From Fidelibacterota bacterium (GTDB lineage Bacteria > Fidelibacterota > Marinisomatia > SCGC-AAA003-L08 > D37C17): 32,846 bases of DNA. Position 1 is the stretch's first letter, and the number at the start of each line of letters is the position of its first letter. Shown piece by piece: positions 4,124 through 25,812 of the stretch. The stretch lies in NCBI GenBank assembly GCA_002704685.1, contig PAHD01000027.1, positions 1 through 32,846 on the forward strand, written 5' to 3'. The translations under genes were made by a program, and so were the position numbers. The notes under the pieces are model-generated. The model was not told the origin of the DNA, ran no database searches, and was given only the letters and a program-made list of their open reading frames with translations.

Positions 4124-4833
4124 GATTAAATAAATATTTAGCTAAGTGTGGCATTGGATCAAGAAGAAAATGCGACGAGTATATAAAAAATGGGAAAATT
4201 AAAGTAAATGGTAAAGTAATTTCTGATTTTTCTTACAACGTTAACCCTGGTTCTTACATTCAATTTAATAATAAGTTGATAAATAAGCTTGAAGATTTAA
4301 CTTATATTTTAAATAAACCTAAAGGTTATATTTGTAGTAAGAAAGATAATTTAGATCGAAAAATCATTTATGATTTAATTCCTGATGGTTTAAATTTTTT
4401 TTCAATTGGGAGATTAGATTATGATACATCTGGTATCATTATTATTACAAATGATGGTGATTTAAGTTATAGTTTATCTCATCCAAAATTTAATTTTAAA
4501 AAAAAATATTATGTATTTAGTGATAAAAAATTTTCATATGAGAATTTAAAAAAAATAAAAAAAGGTATAAAAGTAGGTAATGATTTTCTTAAAGCAGATA
4601 TAAAATTTTTAGAATATATTAACAATGGCTATTTTTGGGATGTGATATTAACTGAAGGTAAAAATAGAGAAATAAAAAAAATTTTCAACCAGTTTGATAA
4701 TAAAGTTTTAAATCTTCATAGATATGAATTTGCTGGAATTAAGTTGAATGGTTTAAAAGAAGGAAAATATAAAAAAATAAGCAAAAAAAAAATAAATGCA
4801 ATTCTTAGAGAAAAAAAAAATAATAAATATTAA
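4120..4833 (+). CDS. RluB/RsuA-family pseudouridine synthase
   Basis: The protein converts uridine to pseudouridine in rRNA. An S4 domain at the N-terminus (MRLNKYLAKCGIGSRRKCDE) is followed by the RsuA/RluB/E/F catalytic domain. The catalytic Asp is D100 in SIGRLDYDTSG. LNKPKGY near residue 65 and LTEGKNREIKKIF near 180 are also conserved. RluB (large-subunit helix 89 region) is the likeliest orthologue because of the S4 domain and context, but RsuA and RluE/F relatives share these motifs, so the target is not proven. The C-terminus is short and Lys/Asn-rich, with an A10 run at 4811-4820. ATGA overlap with trpS indicates coupling. Confidence 0.92.
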   Translation: MRLNKYLAKCGIGSRRKCDEYIKNGKIKVNGKVISDFSYNVNPGSYIQFNNKLINKLEDLTYILNKPKGYICSKKDNLDRKIIYDLIPDGLNFFSIGRLDYDTSGIIIITNDGDLSYSLSHPKFNFKKKYYVFSDKKFSYENLKKIKKGIKVGNDFLKADIKFLEYINNGYFWDVILTEGKNREIKKIFNQFDNKVLNLHRYEFAGIKLNGLKEGKYKKISKKKINAILREKKNNKY

Positions 4834-8350: not shown

Positions 8351-10307
8351 AGTTGATTTCAGCTATATTTATATAGTTTTTATAGTAATTTTTTCTTTTT
8401 TCATATACAATTATATAAAACTTTTAAGTTACAAAGTAAAAAAGTTCTTTTATCATTTAATACTAATTAGATCTATTGTTATTATTATTTTGGTAACATT
8501 AATAATTAATCCATCAATAACTTTCTCTTCGGTTTCAAATAAAACTTTTGACTTAGTTATTGATAATTCTAAAAGTATGAAAAAACATAGTCAAAATATA
8601 ATAAACAACATAAAAGAAATTAAAGATTGGGGTCAAAAAAATAAAATTAATTTTAATTTTTATATTTTTGGAAATTCTTTAAGGAAGATTTTTGATCTTG
8701 ATGAAATAGATTTTAGTGATAGTTACACAAATTTTAGTGACTTTGTAAATGAATATAAATCAAATAATGAAGTTATTCTTTTTTCAGATGGACTTAATAA
8801 TCATGGTTTAACTGATATTGATTATAAAAATTTAAATAGCGTTAATATTATTGGTTATGGAAATCAGATGGTATCAGATTTAGATATTAGTATAGAAATT
8901 TTGGATACAGTAATTTATAATGATAGCATAAAAGTTAATGTTTTAGTTAAAAAAAATATAGAAAATATTCGTGTTAATGGATCTATACATTTAAATAATA
9001 ATTTTTATAAAAATTATAGTTTAAATGATTATAATCTTGAGGAAAATTCTTATCAAGAAATTACTTTTACTTTACCAATAAATAAAATAGATAGATTTAA
9101 CGCAATTTATATAACAAATAACTATTTTGAATCAAATTATTTAAATAATAGTTTAGAATTATTCATACCAGCAAATAAATTTTCAAGTAAAAAACTATTA
9201 TTAATAAGTGGATCTATATCAAATAATACTAGTTATATAAAAAAAATTATAAAAAATAATTTATATGATTACAATATTGATCACATATATAGATTAAATA
9301 ATAATTTATGGAATAAATCAATGAACGATTTTAATTTTGAGGATTATAGTCTTCTAGTTTTTGATGATTTTCCAATATATAATGATGATAAGTCAATTAT
9401 TAATAATTTTGAAATAAATAATCAGAAGATTATTTATTTTCTTGGACCAAATAATTATTCTAGAAATTATATATTAGATTTTTGTAATTGTGATTATAAA
9501 AATATTGATAATTTAGTGGTCAATAAGTTTGGTAATGAGTATTTTTATAAGGGTAATTATTATATTCTTCCCTCCAGCGAAGTTAATCATATAATTCAAT
9601 GCAATAATGATGCAAATATATCTTATGATAATGGAAATACATTTATTTCAAAGCATAAAAATATTATTTTATTTCTAATTCCAAATTTAAAAGAAAATTC
9701 TTACCAAATTGATGATACTAGTTTAATGCTTGAGGATTTGATTTTATCTGTAATTGACAATGAGGTATATTCAAATAATAGAATATTTGAAATTTTTGTT
9801 GATACATACAGTGTAAATATTAATACACCTTTAGATGTGAAAATTAAGCTTTATAATAATAAAAATATTAATGATTTATTTTTAAATATTTATAAAGATA
9901 ATCAGCTGTATATGCAGTTTAATGATTTGGAAAAGAAATCTGTAGATTTTTTTTCCAAAGAAATAGTTTTTTATAAAAGTGGTGAGTACGTAATGCAAGC
10001 TGGTATAAAATTAGATAATAATAATATTAAAAGTAATTTCATAAATATAAAAGTTAATAAGATTGATAGAGAAATTTCTGTAGATGGTATTAATATGGAT
10101 TTTTTATCTGTTATATCAAATAATACTGAAGGAGTTTTTTACAAAAGCATTAATTTAGATGAGTTTTTAGAAAATATTGAAATTTCAAAAGTTAATACCG
10201 TAAATTATACTAAATTTGACTTAAATAATTTATCTTACCTTTTGATAGTAATTATAATCTTGCTATCATTAGATTGGTATATTAGAAACAAAGTTGGACT
10301 TGTATAA
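8343..10307 (+). CDS. Membrane-anchored VWA-like protein
   Basis: The 654-residue protein has two N-terminal membrane segments (about 8-25 and 38-57). A von Willebrand factor A-like domain follows, with a MIDAS-type motif D74-N-S76-K-S78 and a later LFSDGLNN segment. After a long extracytoplasmic region, a C-terminal membrane helix ends LDWYIRNKVGLV. This plan resembles a family of large BatA-like or uncharacterised VWA membrane proteins in the FCB group. The ligand and role are unknown. It precedes the polysaccharide genes with a one-base overlap, but a functional link is unproven. The ORF track starts at TTG 8337; ATG 8343 is preferred and sits two codons later. Codons are extremely AT-rich with many Asn. 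Confidence 0.75.
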   Translation: MLKVDFSYIYIVFIVIFSFFIYNYIKLLSYKVKKFFYHLILIRSIVIIILVTLIINPSITFSSVSNKTFDLVIDNSKSMKKHSQNIINNIKEIKDWGQKNKINFNFYIFGNSLRKIFDLDEIDFSDSYTNFSDFVNEYKSNNEVILFSDGLNNHGLTDIDYKNLNSVNIIGYGNQMVSDLDISIEILDTVIYNDSIKVNVLVKKNIENIRVNGSIHLNNNFYKNYSLNDYNLEENSYQEITFTLPINKIDRFNAIYITNNYFESNYLNNSLELFIPANKFSSKKLLLISGSISNNTSYIKKIIKNNLYDYNIDHIYRLNNNLWNKSMNDFNFEDYSLLVFDDFPIYNDDKSIINNFEINNQKIIYFLGPNNYSRNYILDFCNCDYKNIDNLVVNKFGNEYFYKGNYYILPSSEVNHIIQCNNDANISYDNGNTFISKHKNIILFLIPNLKENSYQIDDTSLMLEDLILSVIDNEVYSNNRIFEIFVDTYSVNINTPLDVKIKLYNNKNINDLFLNIYKDNQLYMQFNDLEKKSVDFFSKEIVFYKSGEYVMQAGIKLDNNNIKSNFINIKVNKIDREISVDGINMDFLSVISNNTEGVFYKSINLDEFLENIEISKVNTVNYTKFDLNNLSYLLIVIIILLSLDWYIRNKVGLV

Positions 10308-11863
10308 TGAATTTTATATTTTTAATAATTATAAGTTTTTTATTTACTCAAGATAATTCTTTCGATAAATGGAATTTGGAAAAACTATATTCTAATCAGT
10401 TAAAAAATAAACAAATAAATTTACAGAATCATAAAAATGTCAATCCCATAAATAACCCTATTATATTAGAAGAGTATATAGTAGGACCTGGAGATGAATT
10501 TTTTATTAGTTTTTCAGTTAATGATATTGTTTTTAGCGACTATATTGTTATTTCACAATTAAATGATATTGTTATCCCAGGTATTGGTATGATAAACTTA
10601 GAAAAGTTATCATTAAAAGAATCATATGATAAAATTAAAAGTATTTTTGCAAAAAAATATACAGATTCTAATCTTGATATTACATTAACAAATATAAGAA
10701 AATTTTATATTAATATTTTTGGTACAAATTCTGGTCCAACAAAAATTTTAACTAACCCTCTAGATAAGGTATCTGATGTATATGAAAAAATAATTAAGCA
10801 AATTAATATTAAAGAAGATTATAATTTAACTTATAGGAATGTAGTGTTAAAACGCAAATCTAATTTTTATAATATTGATTTGTTAGAATATAAAAGATTA
10901 GGCTTAGGAAATAATCCTCAACTCCTTGAAGGAGATGAGATTTATTTAAAAAATTATACAAAATATATTGATATTTATGGTGGTATAAATAGCCCAGGAA
11001 GATATGAGTATAAAAAAAATGAAAGATTAGCTGATTTTATTGCTGTTTGTGGTGGATTTAAAAATGATATTGAAACGGAAAAATTTAAGATTTCACGTTT
11101 TATAAAAAATAAAGATTTACCATCAGAAATTACTATAAATAATGATAGTCTTGATATATTTATTAATGAGTATGATCATATTATTATACCTGAAAAAGAT
11201 TTTTCTAAGAAAATGGTTTTTATTAATGGGGAAGTGAAAATTCCTGGTTATTATTTTCTTGAAGAAAATATGACCGTATATGAGCTTATTTTAAAAGCTG
11301 GTGGATATACTGATAGCGCAGATAAAAATAAAATAATACTTAATAATGATATTTTAGGTGATATCAAGGATTTAGAATTAGCGAGGATTAACTTGATACC
11401 TCCACAAAACAGGTCCTTATCTGAAATATCATACATTCAGTCAAGAAGTTTAATTGAAAAGGGTTCTGTAATTTCAAATAATAAGGAGTTTACATCTGAA
11501 GTACTTGCTTATAATTTAAATATTGATGATAAGGTATATATTCCTGTTTTAATAAGTTATGTTGAGGTAATTGGTGCAATTGAATATCCTGGTAGATATC
11601 CTTATGTAGATGGCCAAAGTATAGAGGATTATATAAAAAATGCTGGAGGAAAAACAAATAAATCAAGGGGTAATATATATATTGTTAATTCTTTTAATCA
11701 AAAGATAAAAGTATCAAGTAAATTTACTGAAATCTATAATGGTGAAACAATTTTTGTTGAAACTAAAGAAAATTTTAATACATGGAATAAATTGAAAGAA
11801 TCTATGAGTCTTATTGGTCAATTAGCAACTTTAATTGCTGTCATACAAAGTGCATCAAATTAA
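10307..11863 (+). CDS. Polysaccharide export protein (Wza/OPX type, SLBB repeats)
   Basis: This is a probable outer-membrane polysaccharide export protein. A short hydrophobic N-terminus (MNFIFLIIISFLFTQD) looks like a signal peptide without a lipobox Cys, unlike E. coli Wza. The poly-export domain begins near residue 55 with YIVGPGDEFFIS. At least three SLBB-type beta-grasp repeats follow, each with a G-x-x-x-x-PG(R/Y)Y core: GGINSPGRYEY near 225, NGEVKIPGYYFL near 308 and GAIEYPGRYPY near 424. Each is followed by an AGG-type turn. The C-terminus ends in a hydrophobic stretch (MSLIGQLATLIAVIQSA), which could cross or associate with the outer membrane. It forms a pair with the Wzz-like protein downstream, two bases apart at the codon level. 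Confidence 0.88.
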   Translation: MNFIFLIIISFLFTQDNSFDKWNLEKLYSNQLKNKQINLQNHKNVNPINNPIILEEYIVGPGDEFFISFSVNDIVFSDYIVISQLNDIVIPGIGMINLEKLSLKESYDKIKSIFAKKYTDSNLDITLTNIRKFYINIFGTNSGPTKILTNPLDKVSDVYEKIIKQINIKEDYNLTYRNVVLKRKSNFYNIDLLEYKRLGLGNNPQLLEGDEIYLKNYTKYIDIYGGINSPGRYEYKKNERLADFIAVCGGFKNDIETEKFKISRFIKNKDLPSEITINNDSLDIFINEYDHIIIPEKDFSKKMVFINGEVKIPGYYFLEENMTVYELILKAGGYTDSADKNKIILNNDILGDIKDLELARINLIPPQNRSLSEISYIQSRSLIEKGSVISNNKEFTSEVLAYNLNIDDKVYIPVLISYVEVIGAIEYPGRYPYVDGQSIEDYIKNAGGKTNKSRGNIYIVNSFNQKIKVSSKFTEIYNGETIFVETKENFNTWNKLKESMSLIGQLATLIAVIQSASN

Positions 11864-11864
11864 T

Positions 11865-12884
11865 ATGGATACAACATCATCTTTTACAAAGTATGTTTTT
11901 AAAAATAAATTAAATATAATGAAGTATTTAGTATTATCATTTTTTATATCTATTTTCTATTCTTTTTATGCTAAAGTTTTTTTTAAATCAGAAATTACAC
12001 TTTATCCAGCAGGTGAGCTATCCTCAAGTAATGAAATTTATAGTGACTTTAAAGATGCGATAGAATCTTTTGGATTCGAATCATCAAATTCAGATAATAA
12101 TTTTTATATACCTGATATAATTGAGAGTCGAAGATTAAAAAAAGAAATATTATACAAGAAATGGAATTCAAAAAAATTTTCTAACCCAGTTAATTTAATT
12201 GAATACTGGGAATTAGATGATTTAAATATTTTGAACCGTTTTCTATTATATTTTAAAACTTTATTTAATTCTTTTGAATATAATTCAAAATTAAAGTTCG
12301 AAGAAGATGCTATCAAATTGCTTGATGAACTTATTGATGTTGATGAAAAAAATTCTGGATTAATAGAAGTAAAAGTTCTAATGGATGAACCTCAATTAGC
12401 AGCTGATATTGCAAATTTTATTTCAAATTATGTAATTATGTACGTAGGTAATGAACAAAAACATTTTGCAACAAAAACTAAGCTTTTTCTAAGAACAATG
12501 CTGGACTCTTCTAAAATAGATTTAAAAGAATCAGAGCTCGAATTAACTAGTTTTAAGAAGAAAAATCCACTAAGTCTAGATACTCCAGATTTACAATTAA
12601 AAAGATTAAGATTAACTAGAAATGTCGAAGTTAATCAAGAGGTCTATATAACAATAAGAAAGCAATATGAATTATCTAAAATTGAGGAATCAAAAGAAAG
12701 ACTATTTGTTAATATATTAGATAATGCAAAACCTTCTTTGTATAAGGAATATCCTAATAGATTGATTATTATAATTAGTTTTACATTTCTTGGAACTTTA
12801 TTGCTTATCTTATGTCAAAGAATATATTTTGAGTTTAAAAGTATTAAAAGAAATTTTACATCTAATTTTCATGAAAACAAATAA
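11865..12884 (+). CDS. Wzz-type chain-length / polysaccharide co-polymerase protein
   Basis: The protein probably sets polysaccharide chain length in the inner membrane. It has a membrane segment near residues 20-40, a periplasmic alpha/beta and coiled-coil region, and a second membrane segment near residues 303-325. A GNVR-like stretch (RLTRNVEVNQEVY) precedes the second helix, followed by a reduced Pro-rich motif (AKPSLYKEYP). No Walker A or tyrosine-rich tail follows, so there is no fused BY-kinase. The ORF track begins at TTG 11835 inside the export gene; ATG 11865, one base after that gene's stop, is the better start. That gives 339 residues. It overlaps the sulfotransferase gene by 14 bases. 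Confidence 0.85.
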   Translation: MDTTSSFTKYVFKNKLNIMKYLVLSFFISIFYSFYAKVFFKSEITLYPAGELSSSNEIYSDFKDAIESFGFESSNSDNNFYIPDIIESRRLKKEILYKKWNSKKFSNPVNLIEYWELDDLNILNRFLLYFKTLFNSFEYNSKLKFEEDAIKLLDELIDVDEKNSGLIEVKVLMDEPQLAADIANFISNYVIMYVGNEQKHFATKTKLFLRTMLDSSKIDLKESELELTSFKKKNPLSLDTPDLQLKRLRLTRNVEVNQEVYITIRKQYELSKIEESKERLFVNILDNAKPSLYKEYPNRLIIIISFTFLGTLLLILCQRIYFEFKSIKRNFTSNFHENK

Positions 12885-13755
12885 TTTACCTGATTTTTTT
12901 ATATTAGGTGTTCAAAAAGCAGCAACATCATCAATACATAAAATTTTAAAACAAGATTATCGTATTTCTTTACCATATCAGAAAGAAACACATTTTTTTA
13001 GTCATAATTTCGATAAAAAAATTGAGTGGTATATTAATCAATTTAAAAATAAAAAAAAATATATTGTTAGAGGGGAAGTGGATCCATCATATATTTTTTT
13101 TAAAAAATCTGCTATAAATATAAAGAAATATATAAAAAATCCTAAATTCGTACTAGTTTTAAGGAAACCTATTGAAAGAGCTTTCTCTCATTATCTAATG
13201 TCAAAATCAAGAGGCTATGAAAAAGAATCTTTTTTTGATGCATTAGAATTAGAAGAAAAAAGATTAAAAAGTAGCAGTAGTTTTTTTTTATCACATTATA
13301 GTTACTTGAAACGAGGGAACTATTACCAGCAAATTATTGATTTTAAAAATATATTTCCAAAATCTAAGTTTTTATTTTTAAAATATGAAGATTTTAAAAA
13401 TATTAAAAAACAAAGAAAATTTATAAGTATGATTTATGATTTTTTAAATTTAAAAATGCAGAATAATCTCAACTTTTCAATTCACGAAAATAAATCTGGT
13501 TTGATGCGTTTTGAATTTGTAAGAGATTTAACTCATACTGATAATAATATAAGAAACTTTATTAAAAATCTTATCCCATCTGAATATATAAGGTTTAAAA
13601 TTTTAACATTTATAAATAATTTAAATAAGATGAATGGTGATAAAGAAAAATTAAATTATAGATTACTTAAAATCAAATATATTAAATGGAATAATGAACA
13701 AACAGATTTATTATCAAAAATATGTGATTTAGATGTTAATGATTGGAAAATATGA
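12871..13755 (+). CDS. Sulfotransferase (NDST/heparan-type fold)
   Basis: This is a PAPS-dependent sulfotransferase, probably acting on a sugar. The 5'-phosphosulfate loop is ILGVQKAATSSIHKIL with Lys16. KETHFF (39-44) matches the KEPHFF-like segment next to the active site. The 3'-phosphate site is LRKPIERAFSHYLM (97-110). RGNYYQQI and FLKYEDF are later landmarks of the same family. The track start at 12790 adds 27 unlikely residues read out of the Wzz gene; ATG 12871 opens directly into the domain. That gives 294 residues, normal for the family. A T9 run at 13281-13289 is in frame. Marine bacteria often sulfate their surface glycans, so a sugar acceptor is inferred. Confidence 0.88.
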   Translation: MKTNNLPDFFILGVQKAATSSIHKILKQDYRISLPYQKETHFFSHNFDKKIEWYINQFKNKKKYIVRGEVDPSYIFFKKSAINIKKYIKNPKFVLVLRKPIERAFSHYLMSKSRGYEKESFFDALELEEKRLKSSSSFFLSHYSYLKRGNYYQQIIDFKNIFPKSKFLFLKYEDFKNIKKQRKFISMIYDFLNLKMQNNLNFSIHENKSGLMRFEFVRDLTHTDNNIRNFIKNLIPSEYIRFKILTFINNLNKMNGDKEKLNYRLLKIKYIKWNNEQTDLLSKICDLDVNDWKI

Positions 13756-14591
13756 AGTTAACTTCACCTTTAATTGTTACTGGAATGCATAGAAGTGGAA
13801 CAACACTTTTAGTGAAAATTCTTGAAAAAAATGGTGTTTTTTTTGGTGCTTACCAAGATAATAATAGTGAGTCAATATTTTTTCAAAGATTAAACAGATG
13901 GCTTGTATCTTTTAATAATTCATATTGGGATAATCCAAAATCATTTGATACTTTAGATAATATTAACCTTGATTTTTTAATTTCAAAGTGTAATAGAACA
14001 ATTCAAAATAAAATATTAACTTTATACTATTTTGGATTGAAAAATATTTTTTTAAATAATAGTTTTTCTTCTTATGATTTGCCATGGGGTTGGAAAGATC
14101 CACTGAATACATTCACCCTAGATATATGGTCTAAAATTTTCCCTTGTATTTCTATCATTAACATAGTAAGAAATCCAATTGACGTATCATGTAGTTTAAT
14201 TAATAGACAAAGTAAAATGAAATCTCACGATTTGAAAAATTTAAAAAAATATTTTAACTCTCTAGTTCCTATTTTATCTATAAACAAAGGAGCTGTTTTT
14301 AGATCATTTGAAATCAATACAATAGATGATTGTTTGATTTTATATAAAAAATATCAAGATAAAATTAAACTGAATAATTTAAAAAATATTAAGCAGATAA
14401 ATATAAAATATGAAGATCTTGTAAATAATACAGAAGATGAATTAATTAAAATATATAGTTTTTGTGGAATTAATAATTTTAATTTGAAGCAAGATTCAAA
14501 ATTAATTGATAAAAATATTGCTAATAAATACAATAATTTAGATATCTCTTTTGATAGTAAGCTGTTAGACCTAATTTCTTATGATAAATAA
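13752..14591 (+). CDS. Sulfotransferase family protein
   Basis: This is a second PAPS-dependent sulfotransferase, from a different subfamily. The phosphosulfate loop is VTGMHRSGTTLLVKIL at residues 9-24. WGWKDPLNTFTL and the 3'-phosphate loop NIVRNPIDVSCSLINRQ are typical of the Sulfotransfer_3-like group. IKYEDLV near residue 220 is also conserved. The acceptor cannot be deduced; in this neighbourhood a polysaccharide or glycolipid is likely. ATG 13752 overlaps the previous stop (ATGA), which is preferred over TTG 13743 in the ORF track. The protein has 279 residues and overlaps the glycosyltransferase gene by 11 bases. Confidence 0.85.
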   Translation: MKLTSPLIVTGMHRSGTTLLVKILEKNGVFFGAYQDNNSESIFFQRLNRWLVSFNNSYWDNPKSFDTLDNINLDFLISKCNRTIQNKILTLYYFGLKNIFLNNSFSSYDLPWGWKDPLNTFTLDIWSKIFPCISIINIVRNPIDVSCSLINRQSKMKSHDLKNLKKYFNSLVPILSINKGAVFRSFEINTIDDCLILYKKYQDKIKLNNLKNIKQINIKYEDLVNNTEDELIKIYSFCGINNFNLKQDSKLIDKNIANKYNNLDISFDSKLLDLISYDK

Positions 14592-15147
14592 TTATAATTC
14601 ATGTTCAATAATTACTGTAAATTACAATTCATTTTTATACACGAAGAACTTAATAAAAAATTTAGAATATATAAGCACTAAAAACTTTAACTTATTCATT
14701 ATTGATAATTTCTCAGACGATAATTCTTATCAAAAAATTTTCAATTTATTAAAATTTTCATCAAAAAATATTTTCTTTTTAGAAGATAATAAAATTTTAG
14801 AATCATTTAAGAAAAATAATATTTTTTTAATTAGATTAAAATCTAACTATGGCTATTCTGCTGCTGTTAATATTCCACTAAATATGAATGATAAAATATA
14901 TTTAAGTAAGTTTTTTTGGATAATTAATAATGATGTTGAAATTGAAGTAAATACTTTAGATATTTTGAAAAAAGAATACATTCTAAATTCAATTACAACA
15001 CCAATGGTTTACGATTTAAATAATAAAAATAATATTCAATCTTTAGGGTGCACAATAAATTCACTATTATTGACAACAAAAAATTTAAAAAATCTTAATA
15101 ATTTTAATAAAATTGATTTTATATCAGGTGTATCTCTTTTTTTTTGA
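14581..15147 (+). CDS. Family 2 glycosyltransferase, N-terminal part (frameshifted gene)
   Basis: This is the N-terminal two thirds of a GT-A fold glycosyltransferase. SIITVNYNS at residues 9-17 is the nucleotide-binding start. FIIDNFSDDNS follows, then SNYGYSAAVN (the usual N-x-G-x-x-x-x-N helix), and IINNDVEI stands in the place of the DxD motif. The frame ends at TGA (15145-15147) just after FISGVSLFF, exactly where the family continues with an acidic acceptor region. That region is present in the next frame. Dropping one T from the T9 run at 15137-15145 joins the two into a single 289-residue protein of normal family length. Whether the gene is broken, switched or recoded is open. Confidence 0.85.
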   Translation: MINNYNSCSIITVNYNSFLYTKNLIKNLEYISTKNFNLFIIDNFSDDNSYQKIFNLLKFSSKNIFFLEDNKILESFKKNNIFLIRLKSNYGYSAAVNIPLNMNDKIYLSKFFWIINNDVEIEVNTLDILKKEYILNSITTPMVYDLNNKNNIQSLGCTINSLLLTTKNLKNLNNFNKIDFISGVSLFF

Positions 15148-15451
15148 TAAAAATGTTTTAAGAATAAATGGCAATTTACCTGAAGAATATTTTATGTATT
15201 ATGAAGATGTAGATTGGTGCAAAAAAGCTACTGATAATGATATTAAATTAATAATTAATACAAACACTAAAATTTTCCATAAAAAAAATAATAATGTTGA
15301 TTTCAAGCTTAAATTTTTTTCTATTTTAAATAGGTTGAGATTCTGTTCAAAGTTTCATCCTTATAAAATACCTTTAGTGCTTATATATAGTATTTTTGGT
15401 TTAATATATCATTTCACAAAATATTTACTTAATTTTAAAAATGTTAAATAA
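15113..15451 (+). CDS. Family 2 glycosyltransferase, C-terminal part (frameshifted gene)
   Basis: Frame 2 carries the missing C-terminus: FDKNVLRINGNLPEEYFMYYEDVDWCKKA, in the order expected of a rhamnosyltransferase-like GT2, with the acidic ED of YYEDVDW near the acceptor site. A hydrophobic C-terminal segment (VLIYSIFGLIYHFTKYLL) follows. The ORF-track start (TTG 15113) is only the open frame boundary; there is no convincing start or RBS, so this part is very probably made only as a fusion with the preceding frame. The stop overlaps the polymerase gene by 11 bases, so the original operon architecture is intact. Confidence 0.75.
   Translation: MILYQVYLFFFDKNVLRINGNLPEEYFMYYEDVDWCKKATDNDIKLIINTNTKIFHKKNNNVDFKLKFFSILNRLRFCSKFHPYKIPLVLIYSIFGLIYHFTKYLLNFKNVK
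15137..15145 (+). other. T9 homopolymer at the glycosyltransferase frame change
   Basis: Nine consecutive T residues separate the two frames of the glycosyltransferase. In frame 1 the reading is CTT-TTT-TTT-TGA. With eight Ts it becomes TTT-TTT-GAT and continues as a full-length protein. The same frame would be reached by a +1 slip on UUU before the UGA. Possible explanations are an assembly error, phase variation, transcript slippage or ribosomal frameshifting. Confidence 0.9.
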
Positions 15452-16676
15452 ATTTGTTTATATATCAATTATTTTATGTATTTCTCTAATTGGAGCTGAT
15501 AGAATTAATTTAATGAGTCAAGCATTTGAATTCTTTGTTTTTACTCCTTATTTACTATTAAGCTTATTAATTTTATTTACTTTGTTTTTATTCAATAGAG
15601 ATTATTTTGATTTTAAATGGTTATTAAATAATAATATATTTTTATTATTTTTTTTAATATACATAGTTACATGTATTATAAGTATTTTTTTTTCAATTGA
15701 TATTTATATTTCAATAAAAAGATTTATACTATTAATATATCTTTTATTATCTTCGATTATAATTCAATCTTACTTTAAAAATAATCAGGAATTGTTGAAA
15801 GTTTTAATTAAGTCATCATTATTAGGATCTTTTATTTTTTTTATATTTAATTTTCTTTTATTATTAAATTGGTTTTCTGATTTTGATTTTTCGAATTCCT
15901 ATATAAATCTTGAACCAGATAAGCTTGCATATTTTTTACCAAGATTAGGGGGATATTCAATGGACTCTAATAGGGGAGGTATCATACTATTCTTCTTCAC
16001 TTTTGTTTTATTTTTTTTTGGCAATAAAAACAAACTTAATTCATCTATTATAATTCTAAATATACTGTTCTTGTTTCTTAGTTTTTCAAGAACTATTTAT
16101 TTATTATTAATAATGGTTTTTCTTTTTCAACTTTTAATTAGTGAAAAAGAAATAAAAAAAAATATGCTAAAGAAAATCTTTTATAGTTTGATATTTTTTT
16201 TATTAATAATAGGATTTTTAACATTTAATCAAAATATTAACTTATATTTAGCTTTTCAGGAAAGAATAGATATATTTGAAATTTCACGTTTTTCATCGGC
16301 TGGAATTCATTTAAAATTAATTTTAGAAGGATTTGCAAAAGCATTTAACGATTTTAAAATATTATTTTTTGGTTCAGGTTTTGGAACATCATTTCTATTG
16401 ATCAAAGGATATTATTGGAGTGGTATTAAATATGGTAATTATCATTCATTATATATTACGACATTAGTTGAGTGTGGGATTTTCAATACAATATCAATGT
16501 TTATAATATCTTTTTTACTACCTTTTATAATTGATTATAAAAATCATATTTTCACTTTACTTTTTGGTTTATTGTTTTTTAATATTTTTTATCAATTAAT
16601 TATGGAACCAGTTTTTTGGTTTTCAATTTTATTATTTTATAAGTTTAATTTTAGTGAATTAAAAAATGAAAAATAA
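15441..16676 (+). CDS. O-antigen polymerase/ligase family membrane protein (Wzy/WaaL-like)
   Basis: The 411-residue protein is a polytopic membrane protein with about ten to twelve hydrophobic helices. Between the late helices lies a periplasmic loop with GSGFGTSF followed by NYHSLYITTLVECGI. That pair, a Gly-rich turn and an (N/H)-H-(N/S) segment before a helix, is typical of the Wzy_C/O-antigen ligase superfamily. FSRTIYLLL after a helix is also common there. Polymerase versus ligase cannot be separated by sequence; the neighbouring Wzz-like and export genes favour a polymerase. An in-frame T9 run lies at 16011-16019. It overlaps both neighbours by 11 bases. Confidence 0.8.
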   Translation: MLNKFVYISIILCISLIGADRINLMSQAFEFFVFTPYLLLSLLILFTLFLFNRDYFDFKWLLNNNIFLLFFLIYIVTCIISIFFSIDIYISIKRFILLIYLLLSSIIIQSYFKNNQELLKVLIKSSLLGSFIFFIFNFLLLLNWFSDFDFSNSYINLEPDKLAYFLPRLGGYSMDSNRGGIILFFFTFVLFFFGNKNKLNSSIIILNILFLFLSFSRTIYLLLIMVFLFQLLISEKEIKKNMLKKIFYSLIFFLLIIGFLTFNQNINLYLAFQERIDIFEISRFSSAGIHLKLILEGFAKAFNDFKILFFGSGFGTSFLLIKGYYWSGIKYGNYHSLYITTLVECGIFNTISMFIISFLLPFIIDYKNHIFTLLFGLLFFNIFYQLIMEPVFWFSILLFYKFNFSELKNEK

Positions 16677-17727
16677 CATTGTTATTGATATTAGAATGTT
16701 AAAAAATTCAGGTATAAGTAATTATATCCAAAACATAGTGCCAAATGTAGTAAATCACTTTAAAAATACTAACTTTATAATTCTTACTGCATCTGATAGT
16801 GATTATAAATATATTATTAATAAAATTTACAGTAATAATTATAAAATTCTTAAAATCAATTCTCAAGTTTATAGTTTTTTTGAGCAGATTGAAATAGTTT
16901 TAAAATTAAAATTTTATAAAATTAATTTATATTGGGCTCCAAACTATAATATTCCAATTTTTCTAAATGCAAATTTTTTAATTACAATACATGATTTATG
17001 GCACTTAATTGATAAATCATGGAATAGATTTTATAGAAGACTATATTCTAAAATAATGTTTTTTGTAATTAGTAAAAAGAATTCTAGCATTATAGCAGTT
17101 TCAAATTTCACTAAAAATGAAATTATTTCTAATACTAAAATAAAGAATAATATTTCAGTAATTAAGCATGGAATAGAAAGACATTGGATTTCAACAAAGT
17201 CTTTTAAGAAAAATAAAGATATTCTATTTGTTGGAAATATAAGAAATCACAAAAACATTAAGTTGCTTATTGATACATTTATTAACTTGAATCTAAAGTC
17301 TATTAGTTTGATATTAATAGGCCAAAATAATAATTATTTAGATGAAACCAAATATTTAAATAAAAATATTAAATTTATTAAAGAAATTAGTCGAAAAAGA
17401 TTAATCGATTACTATAATAACGCTAGATTACTTATTCTTCCCTCTAAATATGAAGGATTTGGCTTTACACCACTTGAAGCAATGTCTTGTGAATGTCCTG
17501 TTTTATTGTCAGATATAGAGCCTTTAAAAGAAATTTGTGGAAATGGAGCGTATTATTTTGATTTAAAAAATAGTAAAGATTTAAAAAATAAAATTTTACT
17601 TTTAATTAATAATGAAAGTTTGTGTGATGAGCTTATAGATAATGGTAAATTAAATATAAAGAAGTATAGCTGGGAAAAAACATCCAATGAAACTATAAAA
17701 AAAATTGATAAACTATTAGTAAGTTAA
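16666..17727 (+). CDS. Family 4 glycosyltransferase (GT-B fold)
   Basis: This is a GT1/GT4-type retaining glycosyltransferase, probably cytoplasmic and adding a sugar to the polysaccharide repeat. The N-terminal domain starts IVIDIRMLKNSGISNY and has TIHDLWHLID near residue 107 and VIKHGIE at the domain junction. The C-terminal domain begins ILFVGNIRNHKNI (186-198). The E-x7-E nucleotide-sugar motif is EGFGFTPLE with E263 and E271. The family mixes mannosyl-, glucosyl- and rhamnosyltransferases, so the donor is unknown. It is the last gene of the polysaccharide block; a 39-base gap then leads to serS. Confidence 0.9.
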   Translation: MKNNIVIDIRMLKNSGISNYIQNIVPNVVNHFKNTNFIILTASDSDYKYIINKIYSNNYKILKINSQVYSFFEQIEIVLKLKFYKINLYWAPNYNIPIFLNANFLITIHDLWHLIDKSWNRFYRRLYSKIMFFVISKKNSSIIAVSNFTKNEIISNTKIKNNISVIKHGIERHWISTKSFKKNKDILFVGNIRNHKNIKLLIDTFINLNLKSISLILIGQNNNYLDETKYLNKNIKFIKEISRKRLIDYYNNARLLILPSKYEGFGFTPLEAMSCECPVLLSDIEPLKEICGNGAYYFDLKNSKDLKNKILLLINNESLCDELIDNGKLNIKKYSWEKTSNETIKKIDKLLVS

Positions 17728-21913: not shown

Positions 21914-23107
21914 ATGAACAACCAATTAATATATACAGTAACTCAAATAAATAATTATTCAGCTGATTTACTTAAAAAAGAATTGTCAAATGTGTGGGTA
22001 TCTGGAGAAATATCATCACTTAAAAAATATCCATCTGGATTTGCATATTTAACTTTAAAAGATAGTATTTCAGAATTATCATGTATATCTAATCATGAAG
22101 TAATTTCAAATATAGAAGTTGGCATGGAAGTTACAGTAAATGGTTCAATAGATATTTATACAATTAAAGGTAATTATCAATTTCGTATTAATAATGTATT
22201 TTTAAAAGGTAAAGGTAATCTATGGTTAAAATATAATAAATTAAAAGATAAGCTTTCAAAAGAAGGTTTGTTTGATATGAAATATAAGAAAAAATTACCT
22301 CCCTTACCTCAAAATGTAGGAATCATCACTTCGAAAGAAGGCTCTGTTTTAAGTGATATAAGAAATATAGTAAATAGACGATCTCCATATGTTAGTTTAT
22401 TTGTTATGAATACAAAAGTTAGTGGACAAAATGCAGTTGCTAGTATTTGTGAATCAATTAAAAATTTCAAGGAATTAAAATTTATTGATGTGATTATTGT
22501 TGCTAGAGGTGGTGGAAGTATTGAAGATTTATCAGTTTTTAATGAAGAAAAATTAGTAAGAGAAATTTTTAAATTAAATACTCCTGTAATTTCAGCAATT
22601 GGACATGAAACAGATTTTACGCTCTGTGATTTCGCTTCAGATTTAAGAGCTTCAACGCCGTCAGAAGCAGCTCAATTATGTTGCATATCAACTAAAGAGT
22701 TACTAGAAAAAATATGTTACGATTTTGATAAAATTATTTCAAAGATTCAGTATACTATTAATAATAAACAAGAAAATTTATCTAGAATAGATTCAGTTAT
22801 TAATAAAAAATTAGAAAAAAACATGATTATTAATAAACAAGAGAGGGTAGAATTTTTTTTTAATCTAATACAAAAGAGAGTTTTTAATAAAAAAAATTTT
22901 TTATTAAGTCTAATTAAAAGTAATCAAAAAGTTTTTAAAAAATATGATGATTATAAAATTAAAAAACTAGGTTATTCGATAATAAAAAAAAATAATACTA
23001 TTATAACAGATATTGATAAACTTAATAAAAATGATAATATAGAAATTGATATGTTTAATGGGAGTATCAATGCAAAAATCAAGGAATTAAAAAAAAATGA
23101 AAAATAA
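21914..23107 (+). CDS. xseA: Exodeoxyribonuclease VII large subunit
   Basis: XseA is the catalytic subunit of exonuclease VII, which degrades single-stranded DNA from both ends. The N-terminal OB-fold has VWVSGEISSLKK, SGFAYLTLKD and GMEVTVNGSIDIY. The catalytic domain carries VGIITSKEGSVLSDI, VARGGGSIEDLSVFNEE and the signature GHETDFTLCDFASDLRASTPSEAA. A helical, Lys-rich C-terminus follows. The ORF track starts at ATG 21893, which lies inside the terminator stem; ATG 21914 opens MNNQLIYTVTQIN, where the domain normally begins. That gives 397 residues, near the usual length. It overlaps xseB by 11 bases. No separate promoter or RBS could be assigned. Confidence 0.95.
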   Translation: MNNQLIYTVTQINNYSADLLKKELSNVWVSGEISSLKKYPSGFAYLTLKDSISELSCISNHEVISNIEVGMEVTVNGSIDIYTIKGNYQFRINNVFLKGKGNLWLKYNKLKDKLSKEGLFDMKYKKKLPPLPQNVGIITSKEGSVLSDIRNIVNRRSPYVSLFVMNTKVSGQNAVASICESIKNFKELKFIDVIIVARGGGSIEDLSVFNEEKLVREIFKLNTPVISAIGHETDFTLCDFASDLRASTPSEAAQLCCISTKELLEKICYDFDKIISKIQYTINNKQENLSRIDSVINKKLEKNMIINKQERVEFFFNLIQKRVFNKKNFLLSLIKSNQKVFKKYDDYKIKKLGYSIIKKNNTIITDIDKLNKNDNIEIDMFNGSINAKIKELKKNEK

Positions 23108-23324: not shown

Positions 23325-24184
23325 TGAATGTTTTATGTACAGGAAATAAAAATAAACCAAAAATTAATACTATAGTTAATAATCTTTACAGTCTTTTTGA
23401 AAATACAGACCATAAATTATATATTGATAAAAAAATTGAAAATGTAGTAAAAGAAAAATCTTTTGATTATTTAAGCTTGTACAAACCAAGTAAACATATT
23501 GATTTTGTTGTTTCTATAGGAGGTGATGGTTCAATTTTATCAGCTGTAAGAAGAATGGGTGATAGTCAATTACCTATTGTTGGAATACATATTGGAAACT
23601 TAGGTTTTTTAAATAAATTAAATAAAAATGATTTTATCAAAGTTTTTAAAGATATTTTAACGAGCAAGAAATTAAAATATGAAAATAAAATACTACTTAA
23701 AGCATCATTTATTAATAATAAGAATATTAATGATTCTATTTTAGCTTTGAATGAAATTTATATTAAACAAGGAGAAATATCTAGATTATTAACACTTGAC
23801 GTAGATATTAATAATAAATATCTAAATACGTATAGATGTGATGGTTTAATTATCTCTACTCCATTAGGTTCAACAGCATATTCTTTGTCTGCTGGAGGGC
23901 CTATTGTTTCTTATGATGTCGATTGCAATATTATAAATCCAGTATCTCCTCATACATTATCTTCAAGACCAATAGTAATTAATTGTAATAATGAAATAAC
24001 AATTAAATGTCCTGATAAAAATTCTAATATAATGATTTTTTCTGATGGTCAAGATTCAAGATTTATTAAAAAAAATACAAAAATATTAATTAAAAATTCA
24101 GATATATCTGCAAAATTTTTAAAATTAAAAAATGATACATCATATTATGAAAAATTAAGATCAAATCTTGGGTGGCATAAATAA
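23324..24184 (+). CDS. nadK: NAD kinase
   Basis: NAD kinase makes NADP from NAD and ATP or polyphosphate. The diagnostic GGDGS loop sits at residues 66-70 (D68), followed by GIHIGNLGFLN. LNEIYI lies near residue 142. The nucleotide-binding glycine-rich segment is DGLIISTPLGSTAYSLSAGGPIV. HTLSSRPIVI precedes the C-terminal beta-strands. The 286-residue length is standard. The protein ends in a Trp-His-Lys tail. It overlaps both neighbours by one base. Confidence 0.96.
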   Translation: MNVLCTGNKNKPKINTIVNNLYSLFENTDHKLYIDKKIENVVKEKSFDYLSLYKPSKHIDFVVSIGGDGSILSAVRRMGDSQLPIVGIHIGNLGFLNKLNKNDFIKVFKDILTSKKLKYENKILLKASFINNKNINDSILALNEIYIKQGEISRLLTLDVDINNKYLNTYRCDGLIISTPLGSTAYSLSAGGPIVSYDVDCNIINPVSPHTLSSRPIVINCNNEITIKCPDKNSNIMIFSDGQDSRFIKKNTKILIKNSDISAKFLKLKNDTSYYEKLRSNLGWHK

Positions 24185-25812
24185 TGAAAATTTATAAATA
24201 TGCGATTTGTTTTCTATTTTTAATAAGTTGTAATTCGAAAAATACAAATAATTTTTTAATTTTAAAGGAAGCATTTGTAGACTGGTATAATAAGAATCAC
24301 TTAACAAATAACTATAATTACGATGTTTCGTATTTTTCCTTAATTAATAACTTATCATCAATGAATTATTATGAAGATATAAGTAGATTTAAACTCGAAT
24401 TAAGTCAAATAAATAAAAATGAATTGAATTCATATAGTAAAATAGATTATGAAATCATGCTATCAACTATTACTCGAATTAATCTTTCTAATTCGTCATT
24501 AAAAGATAAAAACAACAGTTTAAATAATGTGGTATTAAATATATATAATTCATTTTATTTAATTATAAATGATAATAAGTTTAGTGATTTTAATAAAATT
24601 ATCTTGTTAGAAAAGCACCTTCCAGATGTGTTGAAATATTTAAATAATTCAAAAGAAAATTTGTCATCTGAAAATAATTCAAAACTTATCAGTCAATTTA
24701 ATGAGTCTTATTATATACTTATTAATTATTTAAATTACATAATAGATTTGCTTGAAATAAATGAGAATAGCTATAATATTTTATTTGAAAATATTAATCT
24801 TCTTAGAGCTGATTTAAAAAAATTTTTTAACTGGGTGAATTATGATTATTCATTTACATCATCAAATTTATCTTTTTTAGAAAGTGAAAATAATTATTAC
24901 GATTTATATAAAAATAATTTATTTGAAAATGAATTATATAATTATTCTAACACAATAAATTTTTTAAAAAATAAAGTAAATATATTAAAAAATAATTTAT
25001 TCAATGAAAGTTTATCAATTTATTTAAATTTTAATGATGAGCCTGTATGGGTTGATAAATCTGATACATTAAATGTAATAAACTGGGTTGTTAATAATAA
25101 AATTAAAGTAAGTACTATTAATGTAGACGATTTTGTTGAAAAAATATCTGGAAATTATAAAAATATTTTAGATCATTATAAAAATTTAAATATCCAAAGA
25201 TTTGATACTTCTGCTGCAAAAATCATTTTAAAAAAAGATTATAATATCCGCTCAAATTATTATTGTCATGGAAGTTTTGTTTTAGATTTATATGATAAAA
25301 ATTCTTTACAATTAAATGATTATTTTATAACAAATTTAATTTTTGAAAAAATTTTTTCTATGCATAATATATATGGTTCTTTAATTGGTAATAATAATAG
25401 TTTAAGAAATATAGAAAATGAATTGTACTCATCAGGTATTTCACTTTTTTTATATGAGCTTTATATTAATGATTTAAGTGAAAAATTTAAGTTAAATAAA
25501 ATACTCTTTTATTTAAATATAATTAAAAAAATAGAAATTGCTATTTTACAAGATAAACATAATAATAATTTGGATGAGAATAAAATAACAGAAGCTTTTA
25601 AAACAAATGATTTTTTTTCCAATTATTTAGTAGATATAGATCCCAGCAGTTTAAACAATTCAAATATTCTTTATTTAGAATCTATATTATCTTATTTACA
25701 TCTATTGAATAAATATGAAGAGAAGGTATTAATAAAGAAGAAGTTAAAAAAAAATGAATTTATTAATAATATTTTTGAATCTGGATATGTTAACTACTAT
25801 ACAATTAATTAA
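24184..25812 (+). CDS. Putative lipoprotein, degenerate DUF885-like metallopeptidase homologue
   Basis: I recognise this only distantly. The N-terminus has a lipoprotein signal (FLFLISCNSK), with Cys16 as the likely lipidated residue. The order of segments follows DUF885 proteins: an FVDWYNKNH-like start, INKNELNSYSKIDYEIM (compare the usual L-S-x-x-x-x-IDY), then a C-terminal stretch RSNYYCHGSFVLDL...TNLIFEKIFSMHNIYGSL. In DUF885 the equivalent of the last part is HExxPGHHLQ, the probable zinc site. Here the first His is Phe and Pro-Gly-His is Phe-Ser-Met, leaving only Glu and one His. EGW-x-LY, the later family motif, corresponds to SGISLF. It may therefore be a non-catalytic relative. Its role is unknown; it lies between nadK and parE. 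Confidence 0.6.
   Translation: MKIYKYAICFLFLISCNSKNTNNFLILKEAFVDWYNKNHLTNNYNYDVSYFSLINNLSSMNYYEDISRFKLELSQINKNELNSYSKIDYEIMLSTITRINLSNSSLKDKNNSLNNVVLNIYNSFYLIINDNKFSDFNKIILLEKHLPDVLKYLNNSKENLSSENNSKLISQFNESYYILINYLNYIIDLLEINENSYNILFENINLLRADLKKFFNWVNYDYSFTSSNLSFLESENNYYDLYKNNLFENELYNYSNTINFLKNKVNILKNNLFNESLSIYLNFNDEPVWVDKSDTLNVINWVVNNKIKVSTINVDDFVEKISGNYKNILDHYKNLNIQRFDTSAAKIILKKDYNIRSNYYCHGSFVLDLYDKNSLQLNDYFITNLIFEKIFSMHNIYGSLIGNNNSLRNIENELYSSGISLFLYELYINDLSEKFKLNKILFYLNIIKKIEIAILQDKHNNNLDENKITEAFKTNDFFSNYLVDIDPSSLNNSNILYLESILSYLHLLNKYEEKVLIKKKLKKNEFINNIFESGYVNYYTIN

Follow-up and report, generated by a model that had tools for sequence, protein, structure and literature searches.

A glycosyltransferase gene split at a T9 tract in a SAR406 draft genome: very probably a run-length change in one of two redundant contigs

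The locus studied here raises the question of why a glycosyltransferase (GT2) gene of a marine bacterium, Candidatus Neomarinimicrobiota (SAR406), is divided between two reading frames at a run of nine T, and whether the full enzyme could nevertheless be made. The window, by which we mean the whole stretch of DNA analysed, comprises bases 1-32846 of contig C34, from a genome of 46 contigs (1.67 Mb, 93.0% complete, 8.4% contamination); all features given below for the window lie on its forward strand. The open reading frame beginning at the ATG at 14581 ends after codon 188 at an in-frame TGA (14581-15147) and was assigned by PF00535 and comparison with homologues. The +1 frame is free of stops from a point before the tract through 15451, and its part from 15148 to 15451 encodes residues 189-289, including the FMYYEDVDW motif, as recognized by homologue comparison and profiles. 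Between the two lies the T9 run (15137-15145); positions 15130-15147 read GTA TCT CTT TTT TTT TGA, and the stop (15145-15147), which arises from the T9 frame, is followed by another T.

The initial annotation had proposed that the two frames hold consecutive parts of one GT2 enzyme, and our comparisons bear this out. Aligned to an intact homologue, the two frames account for residues 1-188 and 189-289, with no second lesion. The match to the TIGR01556 rhamnosyltransferase profile runs across both frames and is split between them, and a profile built for the genus matches positions 1-218 (reading through stops past the break) and 189-292. The neighbouring overlaps described as intact are indeed undamaged: the upstream sulfotransferase gene (13743-14591; ORFs and profiles) shares 11 bases with the GT2 start (14581-14591), and the downstream Wzy/O-antigen-ligase-like gene (15441-16676; PF04932 slightly under the cut-off) shares 11 bases with its end (15441-15451).

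The decisive evidence came from the assembly itself, which holds a second copy of the gene. Window positions 1-26743 align to positions 58368-85106 of contig C36 at 99.5% identity, with 0.2% substitutions when N bases are set aside. In C36 the tract is T8 and the GT2 gene is a single open reading frame of 289 amino acids, the length predicted for a sequence with one T fewer; within the gene the two copies differ solely in the length of the tract, so that the gene is otherwise undamaged, as had been claimed. In the aligned part of C36 there are 67 N bases, the majority facing window positions 10396-13215, as expected of a consensus built from disagreeing sequences. The two contigs derive from different strains or samples, and a true strain difference in the tract is therefore possible.

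The same picture emerged from the related genomes, a comparison that had been put forward as a check. We compared three congeners, the Candidatus Neomarinimicrobiota MAGs EAC649 (G001), SAT2619 (G002) and NAT224 (G003). All three carry an intact GT2 orthologue between the same neighbours, with 93, 55 and 52% identity, respectively; the tract is T8 in G001 and G002, and G003 has TATTTTTT at this position, without such a run. All three congeners and C36 read in one frame and none has T9, which is private to one contig. Within the family the orthologue was found in this genus only, as a profile search of 19 other family genomes gave no match at E <= 1e-30. A pattern scan of viral contigs for either tract length gave no hits. 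The T8 run itself exists because the conserved residues L-F-F-D are spelled with AT-rich codons.

The gene product is an ordinary member of its class. The PF00535 (GT2) score of the intact copy exceeds the gathering score, the GT-A catalytic motifs are present, and N116, D118, E208 and D211 are invariant across 19 relatives. The TIGR01556 score is 39 bits against a curated cut-off of 200.55, which does not place the enzyme in the rhamnosyltransferase subfamily. A structure model of the G001 orthologue (pLDDT 91.4) resembles GT-A enzymes, and its best PDB matches are GlfT2 chains; when the PDB was searched by sequence, the genus profile made from four sequences gave no hits, whereas a broader profile did. 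In the G001 model the break would fall in a strand at residues 185-189. The N-terminal piece retains the NND motif (116-118) and lacks the FMYYEDVDW motif (E208, D211) and H233. In GT2 enzymes such as GlfT2 the catalytic base comes from the matching acidic motif in the C-terminal part, and we therefore expect neither fragment to be active. One distantly related GT2, from a Chitinophagales MAG (L079:3001-3834), has a stop within the matched stretch.

How unusual such a break is can be judged from the rest of the genome. With all 46 contigs joined (1,674,183 bases, 27.5% G+C, 6,885 N), A/T runs number 975 of length 8, 200 of length 9 and 36 of length 10-11, and of 190 Leu-Phe-Phe occurrences in ORFs of 250 amino acids or more, 13 are spelled CTTTTTTTT; a run of T9 length is thus not remarkable here. 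Fourteen contig overlaps, with 104,385 aligned bases, contain 356 substitutions and seven one-base indels in A/T runs. The remaining differences are a 3-base gap within an A run rich in N and a single base where an alignment ends. One-base A/T-run indels also split the genes of a MORN-repeat protein in C33 (C1:1876 / C33:15532), a GT4 glycosyltransferase in C10 (C10:2180 / C26) and pdxT (SNO glutaminase) in C17 (C17:45304 / C46), each of them whole on the overlapping contig. The overlap of the window with C36 holds two more, in the last codons of their genes: the pseudouridine synthase gene has A10 in the window (4783-4792) and A9 in C36, and xseA has A9 in the window (about 23089-23097) and A10 in C36. 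One of the seven indels is intergenic, and mid-gene breaks affect four genes in the 104 kb of doubly covered sequence. The substitutions have a pN/pS of 0.148, with stops gained or lost in none of 321 coding changes, and look like real strain variation under purifying selection. The indels are distributed between coding and non-coding runs as the abundance of such runs would predict (94 coding against 10 non-coding ones of at least 8), and the support for this pattern consists of seven indels only.

Similar breaks are found in G003. Its serS gene (G003:C3:92972-94224), of which that MAG has no second copy, is broken close to a T7 run; that an organism should have lost seryl-tRNA synthetase is biologically not credible, and such errors therefore occur in these MAGs. 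A second G003 gene, the orthologue of window positions 24184-25812, is split at T10. The isolate names of the relatives fit the Tara Oceans MAG set, which was built by per-sample Megahit assembly and Minimus2 merging (100-base overlap, 95% identity), and in which drafts above 90% completeness were accepted at below 10% contamination (PMC5769542). The studied MAG shares with that set redundant near-identical contigs, single Ns, relatives in the same MAG series and one-unit A/T-run differences that split unrelated genes. The comparison differs in that the pipeline of the Tara Oceans set is published, whereas for the studied MAG the close relatives, the Ns in the sequence and the redundancy of the overlaps lead us to infer the same kind of merging.

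Considering all the above results, we are confident that the split is a change by one unit in the length of the T run, present in one of two contigs that redundantly cover the gene in a merged assembly of marine metagenomes. The initial annotation had listed a sequencing or assembly indel among its alternatives, and with the T8 copy in the same assembly this becomes the reading that we prefer. Such a change is favoured because an intact T8 copy exists in the same assembly, because all three congeners have intact syntenic orthologues, and because the seven A/T-run indels break or change genes of unrelated function, each in just one of the two copies. The extra T probably came from slippage noise during library preparation, sequencing or the building of the contig consensus. 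A possible but less probable origin is a slippage mutation that arose recently in a minor strain; the gene would then be non-functional, save for possible trace rescue by slippage. We infer error over a true rare variant, and both tract lengths may truly occur among the cells sampled.

Three further explanations of the T9 gene were weighed. The initial annotation had likened the junction to prfB, with a slip at UUU-UGA-U, in which case a programmed +1 ribosomal frameshift would yield the full enzyme. The likeness to prfB (RF2) lies in a UGA directly after a U-rich codon and in the continuation of the protein in the +1 frame, and UUU_U does allow +1 re-pairing, and a small minority of species have it in their prfB (PMC5009743). 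However, the conserved signals of prfB are a CUU before the stop, a Shine-Dalgarno-like sequence 3 nt upstream and a C after UGA (PMC5009743), and the GT2 site departs from each of them: the shift codon at 15142-15144 is UUU, the sequence at the required 3-nt spacing is TCTCTT (15133-15138), which is not Shine-Dalgarno-like, and the base after UGA (15148) is U. Nor is the predicted downstream RNA structure better than that of shuffled sequences (z -0.07), and the T9 site is not conserved, being absent from the C36 copy and from all three congeners. The genuine cassette is found elsewhere in the genome, in its own prfB (C17 near 59277), which carries the canonical AAGGAGTTATCTTTGAC and whose protein continues in the +1 frame. 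We conclude that the GT2 site is not a programmed recoding site, and we give the prfB-like mechanism practically no credence. Slippage of RNA polymerase on T9, by which some of the transcripts would regain the frame as they do in Buchnera and Blochmannia, is also highly improbable. It is established that bacterial polymerases slip on runs of 9 A or T, with up to 6 nt added (PMC5009743), and in Blochmannia genes frameshifted at homopolymers are otherwise kept intact (PMC3017870); the AT-rich genome, the frameshift at a 9-base run and the otherwise intact gene recall those endosymbiont genes (PMC3017870, PMC5574713). Yet the GT2 frame needs a -1 or +2 change, and single-base insertions, the dominant type of slippage at A/T runs, with deletions much rarer (PMC5574713), do not restore it. 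Moreover, slippage is relevant only where T9 is real, and unlike the Buchnera and Blochmannia cases (PMC3017870, PMC5574713) the T9 state occurs in a single contig, alongside an intact copy, and is unconserved in the relatives. Cells with T9, if real, could make traces of full-length product through a +2 or -1 slip.

Phase variation, also raised in the initial annotation, would make the tract a contingency locus at which T8 (on) and T9 (off) coexist in the population and switch a surface glycan. The GT2 gene does sit in a surface-polysaccharide cluster, and both lengths occur in one assembly, on two contigs whose difference may reflect error or polymorphism. Phase-variable homopolymers in glycan genes are well known, for example Cj1295 of Campylobacter (PMC3068675), with which the GT2 gene shares a one-unit homopolymer difference inside a glycan gene. 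The GT2 tract differs in lying within codon expectation, in not being kept in all relatives, G003 having no such run, and in the similar changes to non-surface genes. When synonymous codons were shuffled, the T8 copy of the GT2 gene showed 2 runs of at least 8 against 1.94 expected, a tract no longer than its codons predict, and the polysaccharide cluster showed 15 long runs against 13.5 expected, with no excess. Across 28 window genes, runs of at least 8 are close to the shuffled-codon expectation, which only the pseudouridine synthase gene exceeds (P 0.03). Because the run counts match this expectation, a single struck glycan gene carries no signal, and the same kind of change strikes pdxT, xseA and the genes for the MORN protein and pseudouridine synthase, for which a switching role is not plausible. 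The proposal thus found no positive evidence, and we consider it very unlikely that T8 and T9 are the states, one per contig, of a genuine switch by which free-living SAR406 bacteria turn a glycosyltransferase for surface polysaccharide reversibly on and off.

The one-unit run-length change in a redundant contig, which we prefer, calls for caution in other genomes. In AT-rich draft MAGs whose contigs were merged, genes are split at A/T runs often enough that a second copy or a close relative should be sought before recoding, phase variation or gene loss is invoked. Redundant contigs within a bin offer a ready internal control.

The GT2 gene itself is an ordinary, conserved enzyme gene of a polysaccharide cluster (10307-17727; ORFs and profiles), which comprises genes for an SLBB export protein, a GNVR/Wzz-like protein, two sulfotransferases, the GT2, the Wzy-like protein and a GT4. 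The two sulfotransferase genes adjoining export, polymerase and glycosyltransferase genes suggest that SAR406 may produce a sulfated exopolysaccharide. Opposite window positions 10396-13215, the C36 genes for the export protein, the Wzz-like protein and the first sulfotransferase are dense in single Ns, a pattern that the merging of divergent alleles would give.
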